This document shows positions 21,380 to 39,601 of a stretch of DNA of 64,000 nucleotides, piece after piece. Position 1 is the stretch's first letter; each line of letters opens with the position of its first letter. This DNA comes from Halopseudomonas salegens (GTDB lineage: Bacteria; Pseudomonadota; Gammaproteobacteria; Pseudomonadales; Pseudomonadaceae): the NCBI RefSeq assembly GCF_900105655.1, contig NZ_LT629787.1, positions 744,001 through 808,000 of the forward strand. Direction: 5' to 3'. The position numbers were made by a program, and so were the translations under genes. The notes beneath the pieces were generated by a model. That model searched no databases. It worked only from the letters and a program-made list of their open reading frames with translations, and had not been told where the DNA came from.

Positions 21380-21382
21380 GGG

Positions 21383-22441
21383 ATGCGGGTACTGTTGATC
21401 AAGACGTCCTCCCTGGGCGATGTGATTCATACCTTGCCAGCATTGACCGATGCGGCCAGGGCGATCCCCGGTATCCAGTTTGACTGGGTGGTGGAAGAAG
21501 CCTTCGCCGAAATTCCGCGCTGGCATCCGGCCGTGGCCGAGGTCATACCGGTGGCGATTCGGCGCTGGCGCAAGCAGCCCCTGGCTACCTGGAAAAGTGG
21601 CGAATGGCGCGCTTGCAAACAACGCCTGGGCGCACACCCCTATGATCTGGTCATTGATGCCCAGGGCTTGCTGAAAAGTGCCTGGTTGACCCGCTATGCG
21701 CAGGGTCCGGTAGCCGGGCTGGACCGCGCCTCGGCACGTGAGCCTTTTGCCAGCCGTTTCTATGACCAGCCGCACAGCGTGGCCTGGGGTCAGCATGCGG
21801 TTGAGCGACTTCGCCAGCTGTTTGCAGCGGCGCTGGGCTATCGGGTACCGGATAGCGTGGGTGAATACGGCCTGAATCCTCAGCAAGGAAACCTGTCGGC
21901 TCAGAATGAGCCCTACCTGGTGTTTTTGCACGGCACCACCTGGGACACCAAGCACTGGCCGGAGCTCTATTGGCGGCAGTTGGCTGAACGGGTGGTTGCG
22001 CAGGGCTGGCAAGTGCGCTTGCCCTGGGGTAATCCCACGGAACAGGCGCGGGCGCAGCGTATAGCCGCCGAGCTGCCCGGGGTCAGCGTGCTGCCAAAGC
22101 TGAACCTGGCCGGTGTTGCCCGTGAGCTGGCCGGAGCCAGCGCCTGTGTCGCGGTGGATACCGGTCTCGGGCATCTGGCGGCGGCGCTGGATGTGCCGAC
22201 CCTGTCGCTGTTTGGCCCCACCAACCCCGGCTTTACCGGTGCCTACGGTGCCCGGCAACAGCATCTGGCCAGCGACTTTGCCTGCGCCCCCTGTCTGCGC
22301 AAGCGGTGCAACTACCAGCCGACTGCGGATGAACGGGCGCGATTCGACCTTTCCCGCGAGCAACCGCTATGCTTTACCCGACTCAACCCCGCCCATGTGA
22401 TGGCGCGGTTGCAACCCTTGCTGGCGTCTGAGGCAACCTGA
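21383..22441 (+). CDS. waaC: ADP-heptose:LPS heptosyltransferase I
   Basis: GT9 enzyme that attaches the first heptose to Kdo-lipid A. 352 residues starting MRVLLIKTSSLGDVIHTLPAL, where the Asp and the SLGD turn are typical of WaaC. The acceptor/donor regions FLHGTTWDTKHWPELYWRQLA and AVDTGLGHLAAALDVPTLSLFGPTNP are present. It starts three bases after waaF with GAGG in the waaF tail, and its TGA overlaps the waaG ATG (TGATG). Confidence 0.94.
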   Translation: MRVLLIKTSSLGDVIHTLPALTDAARAIPGIQFDWVVEEAFAEIPRWHPAVAEVIPVAIRRWRKQPLATWKSGEWRACKQRLGAHPYDLVIDAQGLLKSAWLTRYAQGPVAGLDRASAREPFASRFYDQPHSVAWGQHAVERLRQLFAAALGYRVPDSVGEYGLNPQQGNLSAQNEPYLVFLHGTTWDTKHWPELYWRQLAERVVAQGWQVRLPWGNPTEQARAQRIAAELPGVSVLPKLNLAGVARELAGASACVAVDTGLGHLAAALDVPTLSLFGPTNPGFTGAYGARQQHLASDFACAPCLRKRCNYQPTADERARFDLSREQPLCFTRLNPAHVMARLQPLLASEAT

Positions 22442-23574
22442 TGCAACTGGCTTTCCTGCTCTACAAGTATTTCCCCTTTGGTGGTTTGCAGCGCGATTTT
22501 GTGCGTATTGCCCAGGTCTGTCAGGCGCGTGGTCATCAGATCCGGGTCTATACCCTGAGCTGGGAGGGCGAGGTGCCGGAAGGTTTTGAACTGGTCATGG
22601 TGCCGGTCAAGTCCTGGTTCAATCACCGCCGTTACGCCAAATTCACCCGCTGGGTGCAGGCGGATATGCAGCGCCGCCCGGTCGATCGTGTCGTCGGTTT
22701 CAACAAGATGCCGGGGCTGGACAGCTACTACGCCGCCGACCCCTGTTATGAAGAAAAAGCGCGCACCCTGCGCAAGCCCATGTACCGCTACAGCCCGCGT
22801 TACCGGCATTTTTCCGCCTATGAGCGGGCCGTATTCGATCCTGCCGGGCACACCGCACTGATGATGATCTCGGCGACCCAGATGGCGTTGTTCAAGCAGC
22901 ACTACGGCACGCCTGATGAGCGCTTTCACCTTCTGCCGCCGGGCATTTCGCCGGATCGCCGTGCACCGGCCAATGCTGCCGAGCTGCGGCAGGCTGCCCG
23001 GCAACGCCTGGGCGCCGAGTTTGACTTGCCGGCGGATGGTTTGCTGCTGGTGCAGATCGGTTCGGATTTTCACCGCAAAGGCCTGGATCGCAGCATTCAG
23101 GCGCTGGCCGCGCTGCCAGAAACGTTGCGCCGGCGCACCCGCCTGGTCGCCCTGGGGGCAGATGATCCGGGCAGCATGCAGGCTCTGGCCCGTGAACATG
23201 GGGTAGCGGGGCAGGTATTCATGCCCGGTGGGCGCAAGGATGTACCGGATTTTCTGCTCGCCAGCGATGTGCTGCTGCATCCGGCGCGTCAGGAAAACAC
23301 CGGCACCGTGCTGCTCGAAGCCCTGGTCGCCGGTTTGCCTCTGTTGGTGACCGAAGTCTGTGGCTACGCGCATTATGTGCAGGATGCCGATTGCGGCCTG
23401 GTCGCCCCGGAGCCCTTTAAACAGAACGTTTTCAACGCGCAACTGGCGCAGATGCTCGGCGACGATGATCAGCGCCAGCGTTGGCAGCAGAATGCGCTGG
23501 CCTTTGCCGACAGTCATGATCTTTACAGCATGCCGGAGAAGGCCGCCGATGTGATTCTGGGTGAGATCAAGTGA
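22441..23574 (+). CDS. waaG: UDP-glucose:(heptosyl)LPS alpha-1,3-glucosyltransferase
   Basis: GT-B fold, family 4 transferase that adds the first hexose to heptose II; in P. aeruginosa this position is galactosamine, so the true donor here is open. The 377 residues include the N-terminal YKYFPFGGLQRDF loop and the family E-x7-E motif ENTGTVLLEAL. Coupled to waaC by a one-base overlap; waaP follows after 19 bases. Confidence 0.93.
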   Translation: MQLAFLLYKYFPFGGLQRDFVRIAQVCQARGHQIRVYTLSWEGEVPEGFELVMVPVKSWFNHRRYAKFTRWVQADMQRRPVDRVVGFNKMPGLDSYYAADPCYEEKARTLRKPMYRYSPRYRHFSAYERAVFDPAGHTALMMISATQMALFKQHYGTPDERFHLLPPGISPDRRAPANAAELRQAARQRLGAEFDLPADGLLLVQIGSDFHRKGLDRSIQALAALPETLRRRTRLVALGADDPGSMQALAREHGVAGQVFMPGGRKDVPDFLLASDVLLHPARQENTGTVLLEALVAGLPLLVTEVCGYAHYVQDADCGLVAPEPFKQNVFNAQLAQMLGDDDQRQRWQQNALAFADSHDLYSMPEKAADVILGEIK

Positions 23575-23593
23575 TGCCGGGGAGTCTGCAGCT

Positions 23594-24406
23594 ATGCTGA
23601 TCCTCAAGGAACCCTTCAATCGGCTGTGGGCCGATCAGGACCCTTTTGTTGCTGTCGAGGCACTGGAAGGGGAGGTATTTCGCGCCCTGGAAGGGCGGCG
23701 CACACTGCGTACCGAGGTTGAAGGGCAAGGGTATTTCGTCAAGATTCATCGAGGTATCGGCTGGACCGAGATCATCAAGAACCTCAGCCTGCTGAAAAAG
23801 CCGGTGCTGGGGGCCGAGCAGGAATGGCTGGCGATTGCCGCGCTGGAACAGGCCGGGGTCGCCACCATGCGCCCGGTGGCCTATGGGCAGCGCGGCAGCA
23901 ACCCGGCCACCCGCCACTCGTTTATCATCACTGAAGAGCTGGCACCGACCATCAGTCTGGAAGACTTTTGCCGGGACTGGCCGCAGCAGCCACCGCCTGT
24001 TGCTCTCAAGCATGCCCTGATCGAACGGGTCGCCGGGATGGTCGGGCGCATGCACCGCGCCGGGGTCAATCACCGTGACTGTTATCTGGTGCATTTTCTG
24101 CTGCATACCGAGCCAGCGCCGCAGCCTGACGCTTTCCGGCTGTCGATTATCGACCTGCACCGGGCGCAGATTCGTGACCGCGTGCCTGCCCGCTGGCGCA
24201 ACAAGGATCTGGCCGCCCTGTATTTTTCCGCCTTGCAGATTGGCCTGACCCGGCGTGACAAGTTGCGCTTTCTGCGCGCTTACTTCGATCAGCCATTGCG
24301 CCAGACCCTGCAGCAGGAAGCTCGCCTGTTGGCCTGGCTGGAGCGTCGTGCGGCCAAATTGCTTGACCGCTGGTTCCGCCGCTTCGCCCCTGGAGCCGAA
24401 GGATGA
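23594..24406 (+). CDS. waaP: LPS core heptose(I) kinase
   Basis: Kinase that phosphorylates heptose I of the inner core; essential in P. aeruginosa. The 270-residue form starts MLILKEPFNRLWADQDPF with GGGGAG upstream; the 11-residue extension to 23561 is not needed. Kinase features: YFVKIHRGIGW (ATP-site Lys), catalytic loop NHRDCYLVHFLL, and metal-site Asp in LSIIDLHRAQIRD. Very close in sequence to what I recall for P. aeruginosa WaaP (268 residues). Ends with ATGA overlap into wapP. Confidence 0.94.
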   Translation: MLILKEPFNRLWADQDPFVAVEALEGEVFRALEGRRTLRTEVEGQGYFVKIHRGIGWTEIIKNLSLLKKPVLGAEQEWLAIAALEQAGVATMRPVAYGQRGSNPATRHSFIITEELAPTISLEDFCRDWPQQPPPVALKHALIERVAGMVGRMHRAGVNHRDCYLVHFLLHTEPAPQPDAFRLSIIDLHRAQIRDRVPARWRNKDLAALYFSALQIGLTRRDKLRFLRAYFDQPLRQTLQQEARLLAWLERRAAKLLDRWFRRFAPGAEG

Positions 24407-25143
24407 CTGGTTGGACCCTGAATCCCGAATACACAACGGGCGAGAGTGGCAAGGCCTTCAGCAACCTGGACACAGTGTTTGCCTTGCAAGGGGAGTTCAT
24501 TACCAGTGATCCCCTGAGTGAGGTACATCGGGTACACATCGGTGGGCGCACCTATTACGTCAAGCGATATACCGGTGCGGGCAAACACCTGCGGCGCTAT
24601 CTGGGGCGCCCCCGGGTCCAGGCCGAATGGGAAAACCTGCTGCATTTTCAGGCCTGGGGTATTCCGGCAGCCACTGTGGTAGGTTTCGGGCTGGAGCGTG
24701 ACAACGGCGCTTTTTCCCGTGGCGCGCTGATTACTGAAGAGCTGGCCGATACGCGGGATCTGGCCTGGTTGGCGAGTCAACAGGATGCTTGCCTGGCTGA
24801 TCGCCAGTGGGTTGCCAGAGTAAGCTATCAGCTCGCCCACGCCACGCGCATGATGCATGATCAGGGTTTTGCCCATAACGATCTCAAGTGGCGCAATGTG
24901 CTGGTCACCCGCGGTGGCGAGATGTTCCTGATTGATTGTCCGACCGGGGCTTTCTGGCCGCAGCCGTTTCTTGGCTATCGCGTCATCAAGGACCTTGCCT
25001 GCCTCGACAAGATCGCCAAGTACCAGCTCAGCCGCACCCAGCGGTTACGTTTTTATCTGATCTACCAGCGGCAAACGCGATTGCGGACTGCCGATAAGCG
25101 GATCATTCGCCGCATCCTGCGGTTTTTCGAGGGACGTGAATGA
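24403..25143 (+). CDS. wapP: LPS core kinase-like protein WapP
   Basis: This 246-residue protein-kinase-fold protein of the LPS kinase family (WaaY/WapP type) is thought to phosphorylate the second heptose. TYYVKRY holds the ATP-site Lys, FAHNDLKWRNVLV is the catalytic loop, and MFLIDCPTGAFW holds the metal-binding Asp. The C-terminal KDLACLDKIAKYQLSRTQRLRFYL is shared with the other kinases of this locus. ATGA overlaps at both ends show translational coupling with waaP and wapQ. Confidence 0.9.
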   Translation: MTGWTLNPEYTTGESGKAFSNLDTVFALQGEFITSDPLSEVHRVHIGGRTYYVKRYTGAGKHLRRYLGRPRVQAEWENLLHFQAWGIPAATVVGFGLERDNGAFSRGALITEELADTRDLAWLASQQDACLADRQWVARVSYQLAHATRMMHDQGFAHNDLKWRNVLVTRGGEMFLIDCPTGAFWPQPFLGYRVIKDLACLDKIAKYQLSRTQRLRFYLIYQRQTRLRTADKRIIRRILRFFEGRE

Positions 25144-25916
25144 CAGCCCAACCTTTTATTGCAGTCAACGCCCGAGCGCTGCTTGAGCAGCATGGGCTGG
25201 ACAGCTTTGATGCACTTTGGTCTTTGCAACTGGATGCGGTGGACGACCCCAACATCGAGCGCGGAGGCTGGAGCAGTGTCTATCGGCTTACCCTGGCTGA
25301 TGAGTACGGCCGGGAGCACAATTTTTTTCTCAAGCGGCAGGATAATCATCTGACGCGAAATCTGCGCAAGCCTTTTGGTGAGCCGACCTTTGCACGCGAG
25401 TTTCGCTATATACAGGCCTATGCCAGAGCCGGGGTGCCGGCACTGGAAGCGGCTTTTTTTGCCCAGCGCGCATTGCCGGGGCATCAGCAAGCCGTTCTGC
25501 TCACCCGGGCGCTGGATGGTTATCAGGATGCGGAGGACTGGGTCGCCAGCTGGAATACGCTGAAGTGGACCGACAGGCGTGATTTGCTGCAGGCAGTTGG
25601 TGCTCTGGTGCGCTCCCTGCATAATGCTGGCCTGGTGCACAAGTGTTTGTATCTGAAGCATATTTTCCTGAAACTGGATCAGGATGGTGCCGGTGCGCGA
25701 CTGATTGATCTGGAAAAAACTCACCCGGCTTGGTTGGGTCGGCGTGATTTTGTCAGTGAACTGACCACGCTGCACCGGCGTAGCCCTGTTTTCAGTCGCA
25801 CGCAGCGCCTGCGTTTTTTGCTGGCTTATTTGGGAAGCGAGCGGGTCAACGCAGAGGCGCGGCGCTGGGTGCGGGATATCCGTCGTATGCAGGAACGCAA
25901 GGAGTCACGGCGGTGA
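25140..25916 (+). CDS. wapQ: LPS core kinase-like protein WapQ
   Basis: 258 residues, LPS kinase (InaA/Kdo-kinase-like) family. NFFLKRQDN holds the presumed ATP-site Lys and ARLIDLEKTHP the metal-site Asp. The catalytic loop is altered to LVHKCLYLKHIFL, with Lys-Cys in place of Arg/Asn-Asp, so the general-base Asp is missing at the usual place. Either the enzyme uses a different base or it is a pseudokinase. GAGGG lies before its ATG, and its TGA overlaps the GTG of the next gene. Confidence 0.85.
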   Translation: MTAQPFIAVNARALLEQHGLDSFDALWSLQLDAVDDPNIERGGWSSVYRLTLADEYGREHNFFLKRQDNHLTRNLRKPFGEPTFAREFRYIQAYARAGVPALEAAFFAQRALPGHQQAVLLTRALDGYQDAEDWVASWNTLKWTDRRDLLQAVGALVRSLHNAGLVHKCLYLKHIFLKLDQDGAGARLIDLEKTHPAWLGRRDFVSELTTLHRRSPVFSRTQRLRFLLAYLGSERVNAEARRWVRDIRRMQERKESRR

Positions 25917-27367
25917 ATGTTACCCGGCAACTGGTCGCCTATGGCCGCAAACCGCCGACACCTTTGACAGTGCCATTGGAGGCCGGGAGTGAGCTGCAGA
26001 TTACACAGTGGCTGCGTATCTTGCCCGGCAAGCGGTTGGTTGGCTGCGGGGAGTGGCAAGGGCAGCTAGTGCTGGTCAAGTTGTTTATCGCCAGCGCTGC
26101 GCGCCGGCATTGGCAGCGCGAGCTCAACGGCGTAAAAGCACTGCGGGAGCAACAGCTGCAAACGCCCGAGCTGCTTGCCAGTGGTGCCTTGCCGGGTGGG
26201 GGGTTCTATCTGATAACCCGTTATCTTGAGGGGGCTCGGAGTCTGCAGCAGAACTGGCAGGCGTTGCCCGATACCAGCCCGGCCAACCCGGATGCCCGTG
26301 CCATTGTGCAGCGGGTGCTTCGTGCTTTGGCTCAACTGCACCGCCATGGTTTGACCCAGAGCGATTTGCATCTGGGTAACTTTCTGTGTTGGCAGGATGA
26401 TCTCTATATAATTGATGGCGATGCCATCCAGCAGCACAGTCCCGGTGAACCCATCACTGCTGCCGAGGCGGCGCATAACCTGGGCCTGTTCTTTGCCCAA
26501 TTGGTGCCGGCCTGGGATGAGCAGGTTGAGCTGATGCTGATTGACTACCTGAGCCTCAACAGCGAACGCGCCTTGAACCCGGAACAGATTCAGCAGAGTA
26601 TCGACAGTGGCCGCGCCTGGCGCCTCAGGGATTACCTCGGCAAGGCAGTACGAGACTGTACCCTGTTCAGCGTACGGCAAAATTGGTGGCGTTTCCTGTC
26701 GGTCCAGCGCAAGGACAGCAAAGCGCTGACAACCTTGCTGGCAGCGCCGGATGAGCCCTTTACCCGACAGCCTCCGGCACTCAAGGATGGTGGCAGCAGT
26801 ACGGTAACCCGGGTAAGCCTTGCAGACCGCGAGCTGGTGATAAAGCGCTATAACATCAAGAGCCTGGCCCATTGGTTACGGCGTTTCTGGCGCCCCAGTC
26901 GGGCCTGGCATTCCTGGCTGGCCGGGCATCACCTCCGCTTTCTGGATATCGCCACACCGGAGCCGCTGGCCATGCTTGAGAGCCGCTTCGGACCCTTTCG
27001 CCGGCGAGCCTGGCTGGTTACTGCCTTTTGCCCTGGCCAGGATCTGTGCGAGCTGGTGCCGGCAGATGGTTCCTGCCTGCCATCACTGGAGCAGCAAAGT
27101 GCCTTGTTGGCCCTGTTTACGCAATTGCAGCGCCACCAGATATCCCATGGGGATTGCAAAGGCACCAATATCCTCTGGGCTGAGGGGTGCTTCTGGCTGA
27201 TCGACCTGGATGCCATGCAGGCCCACCAGCGTCCGGCCAGTTGGCAACAGGCCTGGGCCAGAGATCGGGCACGATTGATCCGCAACTGGCCGGCAGACAG
27301 CCAAATGGCTTGTTGGCTGGAGCAAGCACTGCCAAACTTGTCAGCTGACACTGGAATCCGAGGATGA
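25913..27367 (+). CDS. Tandem double kinase-like LPS locus protein (PA5006 type)
   Basis: 484 residues, starting at a GTG that overlaps the wapQ stop (GTGA). Two kinase-like domains lie in one chain. Domain 1 (about 1-250) has the catalytic loop GLTQSDLHLGNFL and metal Asp in LYIIDGDAIQ; domain 2 (about 285-480) has QISHGDCKGTNIL and FWLIDLDAMQ. Both keep loop Asp, Asn and metal Asp, so both may be active. I recall a protein of the same size and place in P. aeruginosa (PA5006), function not known to me. Likely role: phosphorylation of core sugars beyond heptose I and II. Confidence 0.8.
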   Translation: MNVTRQLVAYGRKPPTPLTVPLEAGSELQITQWLRILPGKRLVGCGEWQGQLVLVKLFIASAARRHWQRELNGVKALREQQLQTPELLASGALPGGGFYLITRYLEGARSLQQNWQALPDTSPANPDARAIVQRVLRALAQLHRHGLTQSDLHLGNFLCWQDDLYIIDGDAIQQHSPGEPITAAEAAHNLGLFFAQLVPAWDEQVELMLIDYLSLNSERALNPEQIQQSIDSGRAWRLRDYLGKAVRDCTLFSVRQNWWRFLSVQRKDSKALTTLLAAPDEPFTRQPPALKDGGSSTVTRVSLADRELVIKRYNIKSLAHWLRRFWRPSRAWHSWLAGHHLRFLDIATPEPLAMLESRFGPFRRRAWLVTAFCPGQDLCELVPADGSCLPSLEQQSALLALFTQLQRHQISHGDCKGTNILWAEGCFWLIDLDAMQAHQRPASWQQAWARDRARLIRNWPADSQMACWLEQALPNLSADTGIRG

Positions 27368-27370
27368 CGG

Positions 27371-28816
27371 ATGGGTAATCCTGCAACTGATGACCGCGTG
27401 CCCCTGGTGATTGATCTGGATGGCACCTTGTTGCACTCGGACCTGTTGCTGGAAAGCAGCCTGCTATTCGTGCGCACCCAGCCATGGAATGCCTGGCGGC
27501 CATTGCGTTGGTTGCAGCAGGGCGGCAAAGCCGGTCTGAAACAACGGCTTGCCGAGGCAACCGACCTGGATGTCAGCGTGCTGCCGTACAACGAAGATGT
27601 CCTGGCTCTGGCCCGTGAGGCACGCGAGCAGGGTCGTGACGTCGTTCTGGCAACTGCCAGTCACCTTTTGCTGGCGCAGCGGATAGCAGAACATTTGCAG
27701 TTGTTTGATCAGGTTTTCGCAACGGCAGACGGGCACAACCTGTCGGCAGGCAACAAGCGCGATGCCCTGGTTGCCGCTTTTGGAGTTGGTGGCTTTGATT
27801 ATGCCGGCAATGCAGCCGACGACGTGCCAGTCTGGGAGCAGGCGCGAAGCGCCATTCTGGTCAATGCGTCGGCAGCTGTAACCCGCAGCGCCAGAGCCGT
27901 CGGCAATGTCCATTCGGTCATGCGTTCCCCTGCAGCAACTGCCGGTACCTGGTTCAAGGCCTTGCGGCTGCACCAGTGGCTGAAGAATCTGCTGATTTTT
28001 GTTCCCTTGCTGGCGGCACATCAAGTGGCCAATCTGTCGTTGTGGCTGGATGGACTGCTGGCATTTTTCATCTTTGGTCTTTGTGCCTCCAGCGTGTATC
28101 TGTTGAATGACCTGCTTGACCTGAATGATGATCGCCATCACCCGGTGAAAAGCAAACGACCCTTTGCGGCGGGTCTGTTGTCAATCCGACAGGGTATGGC
28201 TGTTGCACCGACCCTGTTGGTGATCGCCTTCGCGCTGGCCTTGTGGTGCCTGCCCTTGCTGTTTGTTGGCGTCCTGTTGCTGTATTACCTGGTGACCCTG
28301 GCCTACTCGCTGCTGCTCAAGCGCATCATGGGCCTGGATGTGATCATTCTGGCCTCCTTGTATACCCTGCGGATTATTGCCGGTGTGGCGGCACTGGCCT
28401 TGACCCCAACCTTCTGGCTGTTGGCATTTTCCATGTTCATTTTTCTCAGTCTGGCGCTGGTCAAGCGCTACACCGAGTTGCGCGAACAGCGGCGCAAAGG
28501 AAATACCGAGAAATCGCGCGGGCGTGGGTATTATCCGGACGATCTGGAGATGATTTCCTCGCTGGGTGCTGCCTCGGGTTATCTGTCGGTGATGGTATTG
28601 GCCCTCTACATCAATGATGCCAAAACCATGCAAATGTACGCCTATCCACAGCTGATCTGGCTGGCTTGTCCGTTATTGCTGCTCTGGATAACCCGCATCT
28701 GGATGCTGACCCATCGTGGCCAGATGCCTGATGATCCCGTGGTGTTTGCCGTTACCGACCGCTTCAGTCTGCTGACCGGGCTGGTATTCGCACTGACTTT
28801 CTGGATTGCCGTTTGA
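27371..28816 (+). CDS. HAD phosphatase-UbiA prenyltransferase fusion (polyprenyl-P phosphoribosyltransferase)
   Basis: 481 residues. The N-terminal HAD domain (about 1-190) has the nucleophile motif IDLDGTLL with Asp15 and Asp17. The C-terminal UbiA-family membrane domain (about 200-481, seven or more membrane segments) carries YLLNDLLDLNDDRHHPVKSKRPFAAG and LDVIILASLYTLRIIAG, close to the mycobacterial decaprenyl-phosphate 5-phosphoribosyltransferase. SLALVKRYTELRE is also typical of that subgroup and not of ubiquinone UbiA. Predicted reaction: PRPP + polyprenyl phosphate to polyprenyl-phospho-ribose-5-P, then 5-P removal by the HAD domain. The next two genes fit DprE1 and DprE2. GAGG precedes the ATG. 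Substrate is inferred. Confidence 0.82.
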   Translation: MGNPATDDRVPLVIDLDGTLLHSDLLLESSLLFVRTQPWNAWRPLRWLQQGGKAGLKQRLAEATDLDVSVLPYNEDVLALAREAREQGRDVVLATASHLLLAQRIAEHLQLFDQVFATADGHNLSAGNKRDALVAAFGVGGFDYAGNAADDVPVWEQARSAILVNASAAVTRSARAVGNVHSVMRSPAATAGTWFKALRLHQWLKNLLIFVPLLAAHQVANLSLWLDGLLAFFIFGLCASSVYLLNDLLDLNDDRHHPVKSKRPFAAGLLSIRQGMAVAPTLLVIAFALALWCLPLLFVGVLLLYYLVTLAYSLLLKRIMGLDVIILASLYTLRIIAGVAALALTPTFWLLAFSMFIFLSLALVKRYTELREQRRKGNTEKSRGRGYYPDDLEMISSLGAASGYLSVMVLALYINDAKTMQMYAYPQLIWLACPLLLLWITRIWMLTHRGQMPDDPVVFAVTDRFSLLTGLVFALTFWIAV

Positions 28817-30123
28817 TGCGCCGCTTGCTGCCATGGGGACGATACCCCAAGCATCCACAACAGCCGCACCCGGTCAGTTGGCGGTCTGAAGTACCTGCCC
28901 TGTTGCAGCGCCTGCAACAGCAGGCGGGCACGACCTTGCCCTGGGGCAATGGTCGCAGTTATGGCGACTCCTGCCTGGCGGTATCAGATCATGTGTGCAA
29001 TCTGCGCCCACTGGATCGGTTTATCAGTGTTGACTGGTCCGGGGGTACACTTCTGGCCGAGGCTGGCGTCACCCTGGATGAAGTATTGCGCCTGGCGATT
29101 CCGCACGGCTGGTTTCTGCCGGTAACCCCGGGCACCCGCTTTGTCACCCTTGGTGGAGCTGTCGCCAACGATGTGCATGGCAAGAATCATCATCGGCGCG
29201 GCACATTTGGCTGCCATGTCCAGGGGTTTGAACTCTTGCGCAGTGACGGCAGCCTGCAGTGGATCACTCCGGGCAGCGAACTGTTTGCCGCGACTGTGGG
29301 TGGCCTGGGTCTGACCGGCATCATTACCCGGATTGCCGTGCAACTGATGCCCGTCAATTCCAGTCAGGTCATGCAGACACGGCAGCGTTTTGCCGGTATA
29401 GATGACTTTTTTGCCTTGTCCGATGAGCTGGATGCCCAGCATGAATACAGTGTCGCCTGGGTCGATTGTTGCGCCCGGGGAACACGCCTGGGGCGCGGTG
29501 TCTACATGGTTGCTGATCATGCCGACTACGGTGAACTGGCAACCGAGCGGCTGTCGCGCTTCAGTGTCCCGGTGACGCCGCCGCTATCGCTGATCAATCG
29601 CCTGTCGTTGCGTGCTTTCAATGCCGCCTATTGGCGGGCCGCCCCGGCCAGCCCGCAGCGTGCCCGCTGTGGCTATGGCCCTTTCTTCTACCCATTGGAT
29701 GGTATTCGGCAGTGGAATCGGATCTATGGGCCTGCCGGCTTTCAGCAATATCAATGTGTGTTGCCGGAAGGCGTGGCGCGTGAAGCCTTGTCCGAGTTGC
29801 TGGCGCTGATCGCCGCAGCCGATACCGGCTCCTTTCTGGCTGTGCTCAAGCGCTGTGGCGAACAAGGTTCGCCCGGCTGGCTCTCGTTTCCGCTGTCCGG
29901 CGTCAGCCTGGCGCTGGATTTTCCACAGCAGGCAGCCCGGCTGAATCCGTTGTTCCAGCGTATGGATGCGTTGGTGCATGAAGCTGGTGGACGCTTGTAT
30001 CCGGCAAAGGATGCGCACATGCGCGGGGAAGATTTCCGTCAGGCCTACCCGCAGTGGCAGCGTGTGGAAGCGCTGCGCGATCCTGCGATTCAATCCCGTT
30101 TCTGGCAACGAGTGACCACATGA
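28816..30123 (+). CDS. dprE1: DprE1-like decaprenylphosphoryl-ribose 2'-oxidase
   Basis: FAD-dependent oxidase of the VAO family, 435 residues. It shows the DprE1 landmarks in order: GNGRSYGDS (FAD loop, near 44-52), TPGTRFVTLGGAVANDVHGKNHHRRG split around residue 115, WNRIYGPAGFQQYQCVLP, and GGRLYPAKDA with Lys398 matching the catalytic Lys418 of the mycobacterial enzyme. Predicted to oxidise C2 of polyprenyl-phospho-ribose to the keto intermediate. The position of mycobacterial Cys387, attacked by benzothiazinones, is Ala366 here (SLALDFP). The start is ATG 28816 (TGATG overlap with the previous gene); a TTG codon just upstream is ignored. The stop overlaps the next start (ATGA). Confidence 0.87.
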   Translation: MRRLLPWGRYPKHPQQPHPVSWRSEVPALLQRLQQQAGTTLPWGNGRSYGDSCLAVSDHVCNLRPLDRFISVDWSGGTLLAEAGVTLDEVLRLAIPHGWFLPVTPGTRFVTLGGAVANDVHGKNHHRRGTFGCHVQGFELLRSDGSLQWITPGSELFAATVGGLGLTGIITRIAVQLMPVNSSQVMQTRQRFAGIDDFFALSDELDAQHEYSVAWVDCCARGTRLGRGVYMVADHADYGELATERLSRFSVPVTPPLSLINRLSLRAFNAAYWRAAPASPQRARCGYGPFFYPLDGIRQWNRIYGPAGFQQYQCVLPEGVAREALSELLALIAAADTGSFLAVLKRCGEQGSPGWLSFPLSGVSLALDFPQQAARLNPLFQRMDALVHEAGGRLYPAKDAHMRGEDFRQAYPQWQRVEALRDPAIQSRFWQRVTT

Positions 30124-30860
30124 AGAAAATCCTGATTATTGGTGCCTGTTCGGCGATTGCCGCCGCCTGCGCCCGGCGCTGGGTAAGTTCAGAGAGCGAA
30201 TTTGTTCTCACCGGGCGGGATGCCGACAAGTTGCAACAACAGGCAGATGACTTGTTGAGTCGGGGAGCCAAGGCAGTGCACTGCCATGTCGTGGATGTGA
30301 ATGAGCTGTCGACGCATCAGCCCCTGGTGGACTTTGCCATTGAACACTTGCGCCAACTCGATCTGGTACTGATGGCCTACGGAAGTCTGCCGGATCAGGC
30401 CCGTTGTGAGACTGATGTGGCTTATGCGCTGCAGGAGTTCCATACCAATGCGGTTTCAACCATCAGCCTGCTTGGACTGTTGGGCGCCAGGCTCGAGCAG
30501 CAGGCGCATGGTGCCCTGGCCGTGATTGCCTCGGTTGCGGCTGACCGTGGGCGACCCAGCAACTACCTTTATGGCAGTGCCAAGGCAGCGGTAGCCACCT
30601 ATGCTGAAGGCCTGCGTGCCAGGCTGTTCAAGGTGGGTGTTTCGGTGACTACGATCAAGCCGGGTTTTGTTGATACTCCGATGACCCAGGGGCTGGACTT
30701 GCCGGCATTGCTGCTGGCCACCCCGGATCAGGTCGCCCGGCGTATCGTCAAATCCGTCGCCGCTCGTCGGGCGGTGGTCTATGCGCCGGCTTTCTGGTGG
30801 CCAATCATGTTGATTATCCGATGCCTGCCGCAAGTCGTGTTCAAGAGATTGAATCTGTGA
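30120..30860 (+). CDS. dprE2: DprE2-like short-chain reductase
   Basis: SDR of 246 residues starting MKKILIIGACSAIAAACARRW, with the cofactor loop GxxxxIA found in DprE2-type reductases. Catalytic residues: Ser in VIASVAADRGRPS and the YxxxK set in YLYGSAKAA. The C-terminus ends in a hydrophobic helix (WWPIMLIIRCLPQVVF), as in mycobacterial DprE2. Predicted to reduce the 2-keto intermediate to polyprenyl-phospho-arabinose. The frame open to 30054 overlaps dprE1 and is rejected because the ATG at 30120 gives the exact family start and a coupled ATGA overlap. Confidence 0.83.
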   Translation: MKKILIIGACSAIAAACARRWVSSESEFVLTGRDADKLQQQADDLLSRGAKAVHCHVVDVNELSTHQPLVDFAIEHLRQLDLVLMAYGSLPDQARCETDVAYALQEFHTNAVSTISLLGLLGARLEQQAHGALAVIASVAADRGRPSNYLYGSAKAAVATYAEGLRARLFKVGVSVTTIKPGFVDTPMTQGLDLPALLLATPDQVARRIVKSVAARRAVVYAPAFWWPIMLIIRCLPQVVFKRLNL

Positions 30861-31834
30861 GCCAGACCCGCTGGTTCAGTGGTTGGCGCTATCAGGCACT
30901 ACTGATTTCAATTGCTCTCAGCGCCCTGGGTTATCTGTTGTTTTCCCTCTGGGGTGGCTGGGACGATGTGGTGCAGGCGGTGGCACGTGTTGGCCTGTTC
31001 GGGGTACTGCTGGCGTTGCTGATGTCCCTGGTCAATTACGGCCTGCGTTTTCTGCGCTGGCAGTTGTACCTGAGCCTGTTGTCGCACCGGGTTCCCTGGT
31101 TGGTCAGCCTGCGCATTTATCTGGCCGGATTCGCCCTGACCACAACCCCCGGCAAGGCCGGTGAAGCCATGCGAGGTGTGCTGCTGCGGCCCTGGAGCGT
31201 GGATTATACCCACAGCTTTGCGCTGTTCTTCAGTGAACGGCTGTCTGACCTTCTGGCTATTGTGCTCTTGACCCTGTTCGGGCTCTTGCTCTACCCCGAC
31301 GCGACCTGGCTGATCCTGTTGGGGTTGGCGCTGGTTGGCTTCTGTTTTGTCATACTCAGCCAGCGGCGGCTGCTGCGCTGGTCAACCGCACGCATAGCCG
31401 AGCGCAAGGGACCCTGGTGGCAAGCCTTGCTGCATGTGCTGCAGATGCTGGCCTCCGCGCAGCGCTGTCACCGTCCGCTGCCACTGTTGCTGGCGACCTT
31501 GCTGAGCCTGATCGCCTGGTCGGCTGAAGCCCTCGCCTTTTACTGGATACTTGGCTGGATGGGCTTCCCGGTAACACTGCCCTTTGCCTGTTTTGTGTAT
31601 GCCCTGGCCATGCTGGCGGGGGCCTTGAGCTTCATGCCAGGTGGTCTTGGCGGTGCCGAGGCGGTCATGGCAGGATTACTGATCTGGAAAGGCATGGCAC
31701 CGGCAGATGCAGTGGCGGCCACTGTGCTGATTCGCCTGGCCACATTGTGGTTTGCCGTTGCCATTGGTGTGGTTTGCCTGCAACTGGAATCAAGGGCCGG
31801 TGTCAGAAAACATCAGCCTGTTACCCGTTTATAG
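30857..31834 (+). CDS. Polytopic membrane protein of the LPG-synthase TM / UPF0104 family, flippase candidate
   Basis: 325 residues with about eight hydrophobic segments and family signatures LRFLRWQLYL, PGKAGEAMRG, FFSERLSDLLAI and MPGGLGGAEAVMAGLL. The family (PF03706 type) includes the membrane half of MprF, which flips lysyl-lipids, and other putative lipid translocases. It starts at GTG 30857, overlapping the dprE2 stop (GTGA). An upstream frame to 30797 is a shadow. Position directly after the arabinose-lipid genes suggests it flips polyprenyl-phospho-arabinose or a glycolipid built from it; this is inference. Confidence 0.8.
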   Translation: MSQTRWFSGWRYQALLISIALSALGYLLFSLWGGWDDVVQAVARVGLFGVLLALLMSLVNYGLRFLRWQLYLSLLSHRVPWLVSLRIYLAGFALTTTPGKAGEAMRGVLLRPWSVDYTHSFALFFSERLSDLLAIVLLTLFGLLLYPDATWLILLGLALVGFCFVILSQRRLLRWSTARIAERKGPWWQALLHVLQMLASAQRCHRPLPLLLATLLSLIAWSAEALAFYWILGWMGFPVTLPFACFVYALAMLAGALSFMPGGLGGAEAVMAGLLIWKGMAPADAVAATVLIRLATLWFAVAIGVVCLQLESRAGVRKHQPVTRL

Positions 31835-31844
31835 GAGCATTACT

Positions 31845-34391
31845 GTGAATAAGGATGCGCGCGTTGTGGTCATTACGCCGACTATTGGTACGCCTGAATT
31901 GCGTCAGGCAGTGGCCAGTGTTCAGGCCCAGACAGCGCCGGTACGGCATCTGGTCGTGGTGGATGGCGACAAATTCCTGCCTGCGGTGCAGCAGGTACTG
32001 GCTGATTTGCCGGCGCCGGAACTGATGGTGCTGCCGGAAAATACCGGGGCCAATGGTTTCAATGGCCATCGCGTGTATGCCTCGGTGCCCCATCTGGTGA
32101 ATGCCGACTATGTGCTGTTTCTGGATGAGGACAACTGGTTCGAGCCCGAGCATGTCGCCAGCCTGCTGGAATTGGCCCTGCAGGACGAGCTGGATTTTGC
32201 CTATGCCTTGCGCAAAGTGGTCAGCAAGACTGGCGAGTACCTGTGTCACGATGACTGCGAAAGTCTGGGCAAGTGGCCGGCTTTTCATGGGCGCACACAT
32301 CTGGTGGATACCTCCTGCTATCTGTTTCGCCGTCAGTGGCTGATCAAGCATTGCCACCTCTGGCATACCGATAACTGGCATGTCGACCGCAACTTTTTTT
32401 CCCATTCCAGCCAGTTGCCGAATGTGCGTTTTGCCTGTAGCGGGCACTATTCGCTGAATTACCGTCTGGGCAGTACCGAACGCTCGGTGAAGCAGGACTT
32501 TTTCCAGCGTGGCAATGCCCTGATGGCGCAAAAATACGCGGGCAAGTTCCCCTGGAGTCAGCGAGGCAGTGCCGATGTGGCAACTGATGTGGTACCCGCT
32601 GAGGCGCCCAGGCCAGTGTATCGGCTGGAAGACCTGATCCTGTTTGCCGGGGTGAAACAGGACGCCTATCGGCCGGATGCTGCCTTGCTGAGTAAAGCGG
32701 ATCGCCAGACCTTTGCCGTGCTGCCGCCAGCGATCAGCGAACAACTGCAGCAATTGCAGCGCTTGTTGCCGCTGGAGCAGCACCAGCAAATGTTGCGGCA
32801 GCTGTATGGCCGGTCAGCGATTGATCTGAAAACGCTGATACCGGATTTGCGCCGCGCCGGGCTCGTAACCAGTGGAAACGATCTGTATGACAAGGTGCTG
32901 TCGGAAACACCGACTCGCGCTGGCCATGGGGCTGAATGGGTGCTGGGCATCGCTTCAGCGGATCGCCCGGCCATGGTTGAGCGCTTGCTGCAAAGCCTGT
33001 TGCCCTATGTCTCGGATGTGACGCCCAGCCCTTTGCTGGTGTTTGTCGATGATTCACGTCAGGCTGACCATGCGCAGCGGAATGAAGCGGCGCTGCGAGC
33101 CTTTGCTGCCGATAGCGGGTTGCAGCTGGTGTATCACAATCGGGCAACCCGCGCTCGCCTGGTCAAGACACTGGCGGGGCGGCAGCCTGAACTGTCAGCA
33201 TCCTTGCATTGGCTACTGGACCCTGTGGCGCATCCTGAAGACAGTGGAACTTATGGTTTGGGCAAGAACTTGCTCAGCCTGTATGCCAGCGGCAAGAAAT
33301 TGTTGATGCTGGATGATGATTGCCTGTTGCCGCCCTGGCAGGGCGACGAGGTCAAACCCGGTGCCAGCCTGAGCTTTCAGACCAGCGACTTTGCCATTTA
33401 TGACAGTTTTGACGCCGCCATGGCGGACGCCCGGCCGGCCGGGGTGAATCCCTTGCAGGCCCATCTGGACGTCCTGGGTCAGCCGTTGGGCCAGGTGTTC
33501 CGGCAGCGAAATGCGCAGCCGGAAGAGATTGCTTTGTGGCAAGGTCTGAGTGCTGAACAGATACCGCATCTGTCATCTGCAGCGCCGGTCAGCATGACCA
33601 CCAATACCATCATTGGCGCGCAGAACTCCCGACGCATGGACATGCTGTTTACCCTTGGCCAGTCGGGTGAGCGGGTCGAACGCTATCTGCAGGGGGCGGT
33701 CGGACAAACGGAAAAACCCCAGATCAGCTGGCGCATGAGTGAGCGTGACTGTATTCACCCGCAGATTGCCCTGTTGTGTACCACGCTGAGTGGTGTGGCG
33801 GTTACCGAGTTACCTGCACCCTGTATTCCGGTTGGTCGCAGTGAGGATCTGTTTCTCGGCGAGCTGACTCGTTATCTGACGTTCTCAGCCCAGCATTATC
33901 GCTTTGCCTGGGGGCTGGTGCATCAGCCCCAGCCGGAACGCAGCTGGAACCCCTGGGCCGTGCAGTCTGGCGGCCCATTGGACACTGTGTTTCTGCACCG
34001 TGCGCTATTGCGCTTGTGTGAAAGCGAGTGTCATTTACAGTCACCTGAGCAGCGTTATGCGTATCTGTTGACCCGTTTGCAGGAGTTGTTGCTGGATCCG
34101 GACGCCTGGATGTTTGCCGAGGGGGTCAGGTTTCGAACGCAGCGCTGCAAGAGTCTGCGGCAGAATTTGCAGGATTCAGCCCACCTGCCGCATTACCAGG
34201 CCGCGCTGAAGCGCCAGCTGGCAGATGCCGACAAGGCGCTGGCGGAGGTCAAAAGCGAGCTGGCTGCTCTGCGCTTCAGCTGGCAAAGTGAAGGACTGGC
34301 CTTGCTCAATGCATTGCGTGACTGGCCGGGCATCGTTGCTTTGTGCCGCAGTCAGCAAGAACTCCTGGCTGGCCTCGGGGATGAGTCATAA
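31845..34391 (+). CDS. Large two-module glycosyltransferase
   Basis: 848 residues, GTG start with TAGGAG eight bases before. Module 1 (about 1-250) is a GT-A/GT2-like domain: VVVITPTIGTPELRQAVASV, then the DxD-type YVLFLDEDNWFEPEH, then an acceptor region WPAFHGRTHLVDTSCYLF. Module 2 (about 365-700) starts EWVLGIASADRPAMVERLLQ and has a second acidic motif KLLMLDDDCLLPP. A short coiled coil (ALKRQLADADKALAEVKSELAAL) and a helical tail follow. No membrane segments, so cytoplasmic. It could build a two-sugar unit on core or on a lipid carrier. I do not recognise the family of module 2. Last gene of the waaF run. Confidence 0.75.
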   Translation: MNKDARVVVITPTIGTPELRQAVASVQAQTAPVRHLVVVDGDKFLPAVQQVLADLPAPELMVLPENTGANGFNGHRVYASVPHLVNADYVLFLDEDNWFEPEHVASLLELALQDELDFAYALRKVVSKTGEYLCHDDCESLGKWPAFHGRTHLVDTSCYLFRRQWLIKHCHLWHTDNWHVDRNFFSHSSQLPNVRFACSGHYSLNYRLGSTERSVKQDFFQRGNALMAQKYAGKFPWSQRGSADVATDVVPAEAPRPVYRLEDLILFAGVKQDAYRPDAALLSKADRQTFAVLPPAISEQLQQLQRLLPLEQHQQMLRQLYGRSAIDLKTLIPDLRRAGLVTSGNDLYDKVLSETPTRAGHGAEWVLGIASADRPAMVERLLQSLLPYVSDVTPSPLLVFVDDSRQADHAQRNEAALRAFAADSGLQLVYHNRATRARLVKTLAGRQPELSASLHWLLDPVAHPEDSGTYGLGKNLLSLYASGKKLLMLDDDCLLPPWQGDEVKPGASLSFQTSDFAIYDSFDAAMADARPAGVNPLQAHLDVLGQPLGQVFRQRNAQPEEIALWQGLSAEQIPHLSSAAPVSMTTNTIIGAQNSRRMDMLFTLGQSGERVERYLQGAVGQTEKPQISWRMSERDCIHPQIALLCTTLSGVAVTELPAPCIPVGRSEDLFLGELTRYLTFSAQHYRFAWGLVHQPQPERSWNPWAVQSGGPLDTVFLHRALLRLCESECHLQSPEQRYAYLLTRLQELLLDPDAWMFAEGVRFRTQRCKSLRQNLQDSAHLPHYQAALKRQLADADKALAEVKSELAALRFSWQSEGLALLNALRDWPGIVALCRSQQELLAGLGDES

Positions 34392-34484: not shown

Positions 34485-34772
34485 TCAGTTGCACTGGTCA
34501 GGGTCGCGCTCATTGTTTGCGTTCAATTCACTCTTGACGATATATCTCGGCCGTCCTTTGACTTCTTCATAAATGCGGCCAATATATTCGCCCAAAATGC
34601 CAATACCGATAAGCTGTATCCCGCCGAGAAACAGAATGGCAGTCATCAGTGACGGGTAACCTGGTACCGGGTTACCCCAGATCAATTTCTGAAGAATCAT
34701 TGAACTGGCATAGAGGAACGCAAGGCTGGCAACGTCGAAACCAATGTAAGTCCAGATGCGCAGTGGCCAGGT
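34485..34772 (-). pseudogene. gtrB: gtrB remnant: C-terminal part of a bactoprenol glucosyltransferase
   Basis: The last 95 or so residues of a GtrB-type GT2 enzyme remain, from [15 protein letters not shown] through the two C-terminal membrane segments to [18 protein letters not shown], the usual family end. The N-terminal catalytic domain (about 215 residues in relatives) is missing. The fragment is joined, out of frame, to the start of gtrA near 34771, so it has no start codon of its own and is not expected to work. Confidence 0.82.
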
Positions 34773-34932
34773 ATGAAAAGCTGACCGCTGCCATGAAGGC
34801 AATGGTATTTGATATGGCCTGGCTGATGCCAAACAGGCTGACCAGCAAAAGAAAAATGCTCCAGTGCAGCACTGTATTCAACACGCCGACACTGCTGTAT
34901 CGCAGGAAGGTGTTCGCAGGGATCATCTTCAT
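34771..34932 (-). pseudogene. gtrA: gtrA remnant: N-terminal half of a GtrA flippase
   Basis: 54 residues of a GtrA-family membrane protein ([20 protein letters not shown] through [11 protein letters not shown]), roughly the first two of four membrane segments. After FSY the frame runs into the gtrB remnant out of register and adds 32 unrelated residues before a stop at 34672. Its ATG lies three bases after the gtrII stop, so it was once the second gene of that operon. Confidence 0.82.
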
Positions 34933-34935
34933 CGG

Positions 34936-36456
34936 CTATTCCTCATGCTGATTGATGATGACTACAACAGTGCCGTTATCAAGAAAAAATACCGATTCGT
35001 GGCTTGGCCAACCAGAGCGCCCGGCAGCAGCCTCGCGCGCAATCTGTTCGGTTTCTGGTGCAGGCCTCAATTGAGGGCTGGCCAGGCGGAAAATCCATTC
35101 CTTTGACCAGGGTGCGTGGCGTGCGGTGCCAGCGTCGCCACGGGGTGATGATTGCAGCGGAATGTCATGGATAACTACAAGGGGTTGTGGTGTTTGCAGG
35201 TCTCGTTGTTCATTGGCCGCTACCAGTTCTATGCGACTGATGATGCGATTGGTCGCCAGCATGTCCACCTGCGTGGACAGATGTTTGTCGTAGGCAAAAT
35301 TATTGATTTGAGCACCACTGTCGAAAACAAACAGGAATGCAGCCAGCAGTACGGCGCCACCGATGTAATGGGAACTGCCGTTTTTGACGCTGCGGTCAGC
35401 TATCGCGTCGAACGCAAATGCCACCCAGAAACCATGCAACACAGCCAGGCTTATCAGTGAACGTGGAGGGAATGGAGTATTTGATCCGGCGAAGGCGAGT
35501 GCGAAGGGTGAAAAGAAGCCAAGCAGAATCAGTAGTGCCACGATAATGCTGTGCAGTGGTTTGCGCTGTTGCTTGCTCTTTGTGATCACCACCAGCAGAA
35601 ACAACGCGAATATTGCCGCCAGGGGAAGCAGCCAGCGTACGGTACGGTAAGACCCCAAACAGTCGGTACACAGGAATGGAAACGTGTGTCCACCAAGCAG
35701 CGAATAAATCACCCGAAAGTTGTCAATGGCAGCAAGGGGCGAAATGGACATGCGCTGGCCAGGGGCAATGTTCAGCAACTGGTACGCCAGGCGGGTGATC
35801 AGGTAGTAGGCTATCAATGACAGAATTATGCCGAGCCCGCCCCACAGGAAGCGCTTCAGATGGCTCAAATTGCCTTCACGCAACACCGAGGCGATCGCAG
35901 CGCATATCAGGACAGTGCCTGCCAGTTGAGAGGCCGCCGGATAAAGCGCGGGGGCCAGTGACATGATCAGAACCCCTGCCAGAGGGCGTTGATTGATGCA
36001 CAGCCACAACCCGCCTAATGCAGCCAGATTGGCTAATGGGTAAGCAAGGCGCGTGCTGGAGAAATCAAACAACATGCCATAGTAGATTGAAATGCAGCTG
36101 ACCAGGAGAAAGGCATACACGGCAGCGCCATGTCGTAGACCTATGATCCTTGCAGCAATCCAGCTACTCAACAAGAGCACCGCCAAACCTGCAGCGCCAT
36201 AGAAAAGAGCGCCTGGATTGTTGTCCTGAAGCCACTCGAAGATAATGAAGTAGCCCCAGCGACCTTGCGCTATGAAGGTGAGTGCGTCGCGCGAAATACT
36301 CTGAATCTGTATGACATCGTCACTGTTCAGCGATGGAGCAATGAACGGATAGGCATACACCAGGACAATAATCGCAAATATCCAGGCTATTCCTTGCAGT
36401 GAAACAGTCAGTCGCCAAACCGGTGCCATGGCCCTTGATAGCATTGATTTACTCAC
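34936..36456 (-). CDS. GtrII-type integral membrane glucosyltransferase
   Basis: 506 residues with ten or more hydrophobic segments and a soluble C-terminal tail. It resembles the GtrII family of serotype-converting transferases, which use bactoprenol-phosphate-glucose in the periplasm to modify O-antigen. The acidic loop PSLNSDDVIQIQSISRDAL after the first membrane segment is where the catalytic Asp pair sits in this family. Starts at GTG 36456 or ATG 36444. Its donor-making partners gtrB and gtrA just downstream are collapsed, so it may be orphaned unless another gtrAB exists. The stretch looks somewhat AT-richer than its neighbours by eye, consistent with transfer. Confidence 0.75.
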   Translation of the reverse strand: MSKSMLSRAMAPVWRLTVSLQGIAWIFAIIVLVYAYPFIAPSLNSDDVIQIQSISRDALTFIAQGRWGYFIIFEWLQDNNPGALFYGAAGLAVLLLSSWIAARIIGLRHGAAVYAFLLVSCISIYYGMLFDFSSTRLAYPLANLAALGGLWLCINQRPLAGVLIMSLAPALYPAASQLAGTVLICAAIASVLREGNLSHLKRFLWGGLGIILSLIAYYLITRLAYQLLNIAPGQRMSISPLAAIDNFRVIYSLLGGHTFPFLCTDCLGSYRTVRWLLPLAAIFALFLLVVITKSKQQRKPLHSIIVALLILLGFFSPFALAFAGSNTPFPPRSLISLAVLHGFWVAFAFDAIADRSVKNGSSHYIGGAVLLAAFLFVFDSGAQINNFAYDKHLSTQVDMLATNRIISRIELVAANEQRDLQTPQPLVVIHDIPLQSSPRGDAGTARHAPWSKEWIFRLASPQLRPAPETEQIAREAAAGRSGWPSHESVFFLDNGTVVVIINQHEE

Positions 36457-39421: not shown

Positions 39422-39601
39422 AGCAATGTCCCGGCCGGTCAGCAAAGCCAACAAGTATACGGGTCAGTAGCCTCATGCAGCAAAAGCTGTGTGCGCTGTT
39501 TGCAAAGGTTTTGCAACCAGAGTTGTCTTCTCCACAGGATGTGCGTCAGCCTTGGCAAGGCGTGCTAAAATGCGCGCTTTTCATTGACCCTTGGAGTTGT
39601 G

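Follow-up and report, generated by a model that had tools for sequence, protein, structure and literature searches.

D-Arabinose made by DprE1 and DprE2 is most familiar from the cell walls of mycobacteria, where its formation is a drug target. The mycobacterial decaprenyl-phospho-arabinose (DPA) pathway comprises Rv3806c, Rv3807c, DprE1, DprE2 and Rv3789, and homologues of three of these enzymes, with the same predicted chemistry and most of the key residues, are encoded in the genome of Halopseudomonas salegens. The stretch analysed (the window, 64,000 nucleotides) covers positions 744001-808000 of this single-contig 3.80-Mb genome, and the predicted cassette for a D-arabinofuranose (D-Araf) donor, at window positions 27371-30860, follows directly on inner-core genes of lipopolysaccharide (LPS) assembly, a placement known from this one genome. 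Coordinates of five digits refer to the window and longer ones, as well as distances in kb or Mb from the origin, to the genome. Unlike the mycobacterial pathway, the window has its phosphatase as a fused HAD domain instead of Rv3807c, a flippase candidate of another family, Thr for Q135, Ala for C387 and profile scores under the equivalog cut-offs.

Arabinosylation of pilin in P. paraeruginosa PA7/Pa5196 depends on UbiA/DprE1/DprE2-type D-Araf donor genes in a member of the same bacterial family, part of the gene content of this set (PSPA7_6245-6251) being our assumption. According to the accessible parts of the sources, the set belongs to genomic island RGP80, TfpW being located next to pilA (PMC12369383), and its UbiA protein lacks a HAD domain, the phosphatase being a protein of its own (PMC11127046), whereas the window encodes a HAD fusion inside a waa operon and the genome has a TfpO-like gene near pilA. 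The preliminary description of the window had stated correctly that the pilin set stands outside the waa locus. DprE1/E2 homologues were also noted in candidate systems for Araf-containing glycans by Kelly et al. (2024), and the three-component pentofuranose systems described there, with Citrobacter youngae O1/O2 as example, have in common with the window a polyprenyl phosphoribose synthase of UbiA fold that carries a HAD domain at its N-terminus, DprE1/E2 as enzymes for arabinose, a flippase gene (putative in the window) and an expected undecaprenyl-phosphate-linked donor, and use a GT-C transferase (accessible part of PMC11127046). The window holds the HAD and UbiA-fold synthase and the DprE1/E2 epimerisation pair, a PF03706 gene in the flippase slot where these systems have a MATE flippase, and no GT-C gene in the operon, with a convergent GtrII gene adjacent; it further differs in its waa placement and in a soluble, probably two-domain glycosyltransferase that closes the operon. 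A D-Araf-containing cell-wall polysaccharide has been described in Devosia submarina (accessible part of PMC8707391).

Donor pathway and three-component logic are already in print and neither is new. The placement of the donor set in a waa operon appears to be new: in the open-access literature (mainly titles and abstract openings, most subscription papers lying outside) we found no DprE1/E2-type genes in a waa or core operon, no D-Araf in an LPS core of the Pseudomonas family and no association with PF03706.

Enzymes of the predicted donor pathway

The three donor genes were found as overlapping, intact open reading frames (ORFs) on the plus strand, as previously proposed. A HAD phosphatase-UbiA fusion (27371-28816), predicted to be a polyprenyl-phosphate phosphoribosyltransferase and 5-phosphate phosphatase, is followed by a DprE1-like FAD oxidase (28813-30123 with a TTG start, or from an ATG at 28816) and a DprE2-like SDR reductase (30120-30860, ATG at 30120; searches were run with a longer ORF starting at 30054). 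Profile and PDB comparisons favoured enzymes of the decaprenyl pathway over ubiquinone or other prenyltransferases and over other FAD oxidases, in agreement with the UbiA/DprE1/DprE2-type pathway first suggested. The HAD-UbiA protein scored 661 bits with NF006088 and 153, 139 and 119 bits with three decaprenyl-phosphate phosphoribosyltransferase models, and the oxidase 360 bits with the DprE1 profile, the FAD oxidase model ranked next giving 42; the reductase reached 181 bits with NF053786, ranking behind an uncharacterised SDR model (NF005489, 321 bits). Best PDB matches were decaprenyl-phosphate phosphoribosyltransferase (8j8j, 2e-24), DprE1 (4aut, 2.9e-70) and DprE2 (chain 21gq_C, 8.3e-24), named as such in the tables and presumably all mycobacterial. 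As the NCBIfam decaprenyl equivalog cut-offs were not reached (152.8 against 207, 359.7 against 500 and 181.5 against 250), the three proteins are homologues and not members of the mycobacterial equivalogs. We rejected the possibility that the UbiA domain is a quinone or heme-o prenyltransferase, the corresponding models giving 22-30 bits against 661 (heme o synthase 28, 4-hydroxybenzoate octaprenyltransferase 25). Other UbiA proteins of the genome were likewise rejected as an additional source of donor: two match UbiA strongly at the general family level and a third is MenA-like (74.9 bits, under its cut-off of 264).

Residues were compared between the window and the best 80 of 287 relatives from a scan of named genomes (the 80 named loci), giving alignments of 81 HAD-UbiA sequences and, with 75 of the loci, of 76 DprE1 and 76 DprE2 sequences. 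Positions aligned to K28, N73, D77, Y138 and K143 of Rv3806c were invariant in all 81 HAD-UbiA proteins, while the Q135 position was Thr throughout and K208 was not kept (Thr, Ala, Ser or Val). In the mycobacterial enzyme Q135 contacts ribose O3, according to the accessible part of a paper on residue roles (PMC10994848). The SDR triad of the DprE2-like proteins was retained with Ser and Tyr in 76 of 76 and Lys in 75, the remaining sequence having a gap. An Asp pair which we take to be the HAD motif was present in 80 of 81 sequences. Among the DprE1 residues that we presume to be key, those aligned to Y60, H132, K134, W230, Q334, Q336, K367 and K418 were kept in all 76 proteins, whereas C387 was Ala and N385 was Ser or Thr in every one and F369 was Cys in 69. 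Since Q135, K208, C387, N385 and F369 differ amid otherwise kept positions, the three enzymes constitute, on this comparison, a branch of their own, for which the predicted chemistry is that of the mycobacterial enzymes. Cys387 is, we assume, the covalent site of benzothiazinones; because Ala replaces it in the window and the 75 loci alike, these DprE1 proteins may be naturally insensitive to this class of compounds.

The substitutions at Cys387 and Asn385, together with DprE1/E2 scores under the equivalog cut-offs, could also be taken to mean that the final donor is polyprenyl-phosphate-ribose or carries another pentose instead of arabinose. We regard this as extremely improbable, as both DprE1 and DprE2 accompany HAD-UbiA in 75 of the 80 named loci, no other key DprE1 position save F369 varies, and Kelly et al. 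associated DprE1/E2 with Araf, and xylofuranose with an SDR epimerase, ORF13 (accessible part of PMC11127046).

The core operon and the predicted route

Upstream of the cassette, on the same strand, lie waaF, waaC, waaG, waaP, wapP, wapQ and a double Kdo/WaaP-type kinase gene (20333-27367; Pfam GT9, GT9, Glycos_transf_1 and PF06293 four times), which form the inner-core part. The order given in the preliminary description was borne out by Pfam and position, the names waaF to wapQ being assigned on the assumption that gene order follows P. aeruginosa; glnE and ilvE (the latter read by eye) precede waaF. Downstream, also on the plus strand, follow a PF03706 (LPG_synthase_TM/UPF0104) membrane protein (30857-31834, Pfam 3e-48) and an 848-residue glycosyltransferase (31845-34391), so that the flippase candidate and glycosyltransferase expected at the operon end are both present, but the latter is soluble and not the expected GT-C. 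Overlaps of 1-4 bases, claimed for the whole row, hold for 7 of the 11 junctions in the stretch that begins with waaF and ends with the 848-residue glycosyltransferase, but not for the others, which are gaps of 3 (waaF/waaC), 3 (kinase/UbiA) and 10 bases and one 14-base overlap counted from the first possible waaP start. By its same-strand, near-overlapping position with the inner-core genes the cassette belongs to the waa operon, and GC content at third codon positions (GC3) is 0.65-0.71 for the five operon-end genes and 0.68-0.72 for waaG, waaP and the double kinase. A promoter and terminator scan gave values near those of shuffled sequence. ORF calling was crude, with antisense ORFs mixed in for GC-rich genomes, and used a codon table from 13 training genes, among them waaF one base out of frame.

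This arrangement suggests that the organism decorates its LPS with D-arabinose, and we give an even chance to D-Araf being made by the cassette and placed on the LPS core or a core-linked glycan. The cassette would produce polyprenyl-phosphate-D-arabinofuranose in the cytoplasm, presumably on undecaprenyl, the organism being a Gram-negative: the UbiA domain would transfer ribose-5-phosphate from phosphoribosyl pyrophosphate to the lipid phosphate, the HAD domain would remove the 5-phosphate, DprE1 would oxidise C2 and DprE2 would reduce the product to arabinose. The PF03706 protein would then flip the lipid to the periplasmic side, where a GT-C (the adjacent GtrII or one encoded elsewhere) would put D-Araf on LPS, likeliest on the core oligosaccharide or an attached glycan, because the donor genes appear to be co-transcribed with those of inner-core assembly. 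Observed directly are the identities of the genes and their intact state, most of the key residues, the operon-like arrangement and the pattern of co-occurrence; enzyme activities, lipid, flippase, transferase and acceptor in this scheme are what we infer from the sequence.

The flippase candidate

The PF03706 protein matched the flippase-like model TIGR00374 with 93.9 bits and has seven predicted transmembrane (TM) segments, counted here and below by simple hydropathy. It shares its family with the predicted flippases MprF (membrane domain) and GpgF of P. aeruginosa, the latter a predicted flippase of glucosaminyl-phosphatidylglycerol (GlcN-PG) whose activity is unverified in its paper (accessible part of PMC12713373); the cargo predicted for the window is a polyprenyl-phosphate sugar and not a phospholipid, and the GlcN-PG flippase model gave 41 bits, under its cut-off of 320.

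Among the 80 named loci, PF03706 was found in 32, GtrA in 29, both in none, an SMR-type protein in one and none of these in 18. Restricted to the 75 loci with DprE1/E2, the counts were 32, 28, none with both and 15 with neither (Fisher p 6e-10, not corrected for phylogeny). The PF03706 count consists of direct matches of the window protein and the GtrA count of matches above 200 bits (L082 at 30 bits excluded), with GtrA (PF04138) confirmed by Pfam in three examples. A PF03706 count from widened seeds (46 of 80, eight also with GtrA) was dropped, its 14 extra loci being weak matches (32-103 bits) starting at DprE2, which we took as read-through ends of over-long seed ORFs. PF03706 loci belong to Pseudomonas, Azomonas, Chromatiaceae, Marinobacter, Zoogloeaceae, Competibacteraceae, one Planctomycete and one unplaced metagenome-assembled genome (MAG), and GtrA loci to Burkholderiaceae (22), Pseudomonas and Chlorobiaceae (three each) and Chromatiaceae (one). 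Because PF03706 and GtrA never share a locus, the PF03706 protein fits the flippase slot and is probably, as judged from this pattern, the flippase of polyprenyl-phosphate-Araf.

Two other arrangements were seen. In L050, L053, L095, L100 and other GtrA loci, mostly of Burkholderiaceae, a block of SDR epimerase, amine-oxidase-like flavoprotein and GtrA stands behind DprE2 (domains tested in L050), and the extra epimerase/flavoprotein pair may modify the sugar further. Five of the 80 loci (L069, L077, L103, L104 and L105) have HAD-UbiA without DprE1 and DprE2; in one of them, L069 from Serpens gallinarum, HAD-UbiA, an SMR/EamA-type protein whose gene overlaps the end of HAD-UbiA, and a 652-residue protein without Pfam match stand in a row, and this is probably a ribofuranose system.

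Distribution of the cassette and candidate transferases

The HAD-UbiA protein was matched in 39 of 298 family genomes, over the full HAD-UbiA length in 22 (own included) and in the UbiA part alone in 17. In a tree of the 81 HAD-UbiA proteins, the window stood on a long branch without well-supported partner. The genus sample comprised 37 genomes (own included) of 2.7-4.6 Mb, of which 35, the own among them, matched the double kinase; past this gene the operon went on with varied genes in 34 congener stretches, and none of the cassette proteins, all among the queries, was the best match of an ORF there.

Several findings on placement and transferase weigh against D-Araf on the core. The HAD-UbiA protein occurs in no other genome of the genus (taken as 1 of 37), and a comparison of loci across relatives, as had been proposed, showed the donor set to be widespread but its waa placement to be absent: none of the 80 named loci matched waaF, waaC, waaP, wapP, wapQ or the double kinase of the window in its flanks, this absence counting for less in the 17 loci with under 9 kb on at least one side than in the 63 with at least 9 kb on both. 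Conservation cannot vouch for the waa placement, since it is seen in this genome alone, and the co-location could be an accident of rearrangement, because the core locus is broken (see below). The operon, from waaF through the 848-residue glycosyltransferase, has no GT-C gene, so that the pathway, first called complete, covers the synthesis of the donor in full but not its use. The GtrII-family (PF14264) protein next to it is a GT-C with nine predicted TM segments (34936-36456, minus strand, Pfam 8.5e-17), intact and convergent with the operon; its GC3 of 0.58 is below that of the operon, and a GtrII-family neighbour was found in just one of the 80 cassette loci. Its original donor was probably the GtrB product, a hexose, because the adjoining gtrA and gtrB are broken and the three homologues whose source name is informative bear the label glucosyltransferase domain-containing. 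GtrII may thus be a relic.

In the six named loci with any waaG match, the scores were 24-36 bits, as expected of any GT4. The one GtrII-family protein adjoining a DprE1/E2 cassette, a point in favour of GtrII as transferase, is from a Chromatiaceae MAG (L050, E 5.7e-24). GtrII was found in 1 of 198 family genomes, the Asp-Asp after its first TM segment is invariant in 24 of 24 sequences, and a PDB search with its profile yielded no relative up to an E of 1. The region 34488-36456 (minus strand) is a partly deleted O-antigen glucosylation cluster, with intact gtrII beside broken gtrA/gtrB: the remnant at 34488-34934 contains, in different frames, the N-terminal part of gtrA (PF04138 positions 1-48 of 117, at 34759-34902) and a C-terminal piece which we take to be gtrB-like. 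One full-length gtrA lies elsewhere (3532847-3533218). A more specific version of core arabinosylation, in which a captured DprE1/E2 route works with PF03706 as flippase (not GtrA, SMR or MATE) and GtrII has switched from hexose to polyprenyl-phosphate-Araf after loss of gtrA/gtrB, seems to us quite doubtful as a whole.

The 848-residue glycosyltransferase was rejected as arabinosyltransferase. As it has no predicted TM segment (0 TM), it is not the expected lipid-phosphate-using GT-C, and its N-terminal domain is GT2 (PF00535, 9e-9). Its second, Asp-rich half is probably GT-A-like, as judged by eye; a profile search against the PDB gave two N-terminal GT2 matches and a C-terminal one at chance level (E 0.2). 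From 8000 scored candidates 20 matches were obtained, own included, of which three were near full-length homologues (77, 68 and 44% identity). The remaining proteins P0011-P0026 show the GT2 domain recurring at 34-43% identity over 25-33% of the length, in 10 of 16 joined to a fucosyltransferase-type PF00852 domain. In 20 of the 80 named loci, all Pseudomonas, PF03706 is followed by a protein of roughly 480 residues (no Pfam match in the one tested), 15 of them with 8-10 predicted TM segments, in the place where the window has the soluble enzyme. A multi-TM protein of 400-720 residues was found within 8 kb in 48 of 80 loci, by a crude TM count that is blind to GT-C versus transporter. Elsewhere in the genome, two other, weaker GT-C candidates (3581723-3583405 and 3688008-3689579), each present in 1 of the 37 genomes of the genus, have PMT_2 matches below the Pfam cut-off, and a third weak PMT_2 match lies at 1176515-1176940.

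The acceptor

The core locus is split. The double kinase (771.4 kb) is separated by 82 kb from its downstream neighbour in the nearest congener (L149), a gene found here at 853.4 kb, and the cassette makes up the first 7 kb of this interval, followed by uvrA (36590-39454, minus strand) and other chromosomal genes (named by eye save uvrA). The second half of the core locus (853.4-869.4 kb) lies 75 kb past the cassette and encodes a GT4 and a WaaL candidate, the latter a point in favour of the core or core-linked reading, besides nonulosonic-acid genes and genes which we presume to be msbA- and hldE-like. One gene past the WaaL candidate, a pseudaminic/legionaminic-type pathway was observed (858663-864845; Polysacc_synt_2, DegT aminotransferase and NeuB by Pfam, others by eye). 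The position of the cassette in the split, the partly deleted gtr cluster beside it and a juxtaposition in one genome, with misassembly possible, would fit a chance passenger with little or no function at a rearrangement breakpoint of the core operon. Its five genes are, however, intact, near in composition to their waa neighbours and 3 bases from the kinase gene, which makes such a passenger very unlikely.

A donor made as proposed could instead serve to glycosylate type IV pilin or some other protein, with the waa operon merely providing expression. In P. paraeruginosa, pilin D-Araf is made with donor genes (PSPA7_6245-6251) and the GT-C TfpW at separate loci (accessible parts of PMC12369383 and PMC11841053), and H. 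salegens has the two genome-specific GT-C candidates away from the operon. By contrast, the gene at 2553866, recognised by eye as pilA-like, has a 603-residue sulfatase-like and a 525-residue PF04932 protein on one side and pilB on the other, a setting more like the TfpO than the TfpW sort; neither a TfpW-type GT-C beside pilA nor a GT-C of another kind was seen in the 15-kb stretch, a comparison of neighbours only, with TfpW not searched for elsewhere. These neighbours disfavour pilin, which the preliminary description had listed as a target, and use on a protein is unlikely, though worth keeping in mind. The membrane sulfatase-like protein before an O-antigen-ligase-like gene (2550342-2553866) is in itself an unusual-looking pilin accessory pair.

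D-Araf might also be a side chain of the O-polysaccharide, added after polymerisation and not on the core itself. The GtrII family is, we assume, one that modifies O-antigen, and the genome has more PF04932 proteins and polysaccharide genes near 1.80-1.83 Mb. The Citrobacter prototype acts on O-polysaccharide (accessible part of PMC11127046). Yet the cassette stands with inner-core genes and not in the 1.80-1.83 Mb locus, and no O-antigen structure for this organism was found in the literature covered; we consider O-chain decoration rather improbable. Therefore, with the cassette at the end of the inner-core half of the split locus and TfpO-like neighbours of pilA, LPS core or a core-linked glycan ranks first, followed by O-chain side groups and protein and then by a non-functional passenger.

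Significance

The mutual exclusion of PF03706 and GtrA offers a testable candidate for the export step of polyprenyl-phosphate pentoses. Core assembly is cytoplasmic and based on nucleotide sugars, and normally proceeds without lipid-linked periplasmic addition, apart from that of 4-amino-4-deoxy-L-arabinose (L-Ara4N). If D-Araf is indeed placed on this Gram-negative LPS core, an operon for the inner core would have acquired a periplasmic mode of sugar addition that works from a lipid-linked donor.

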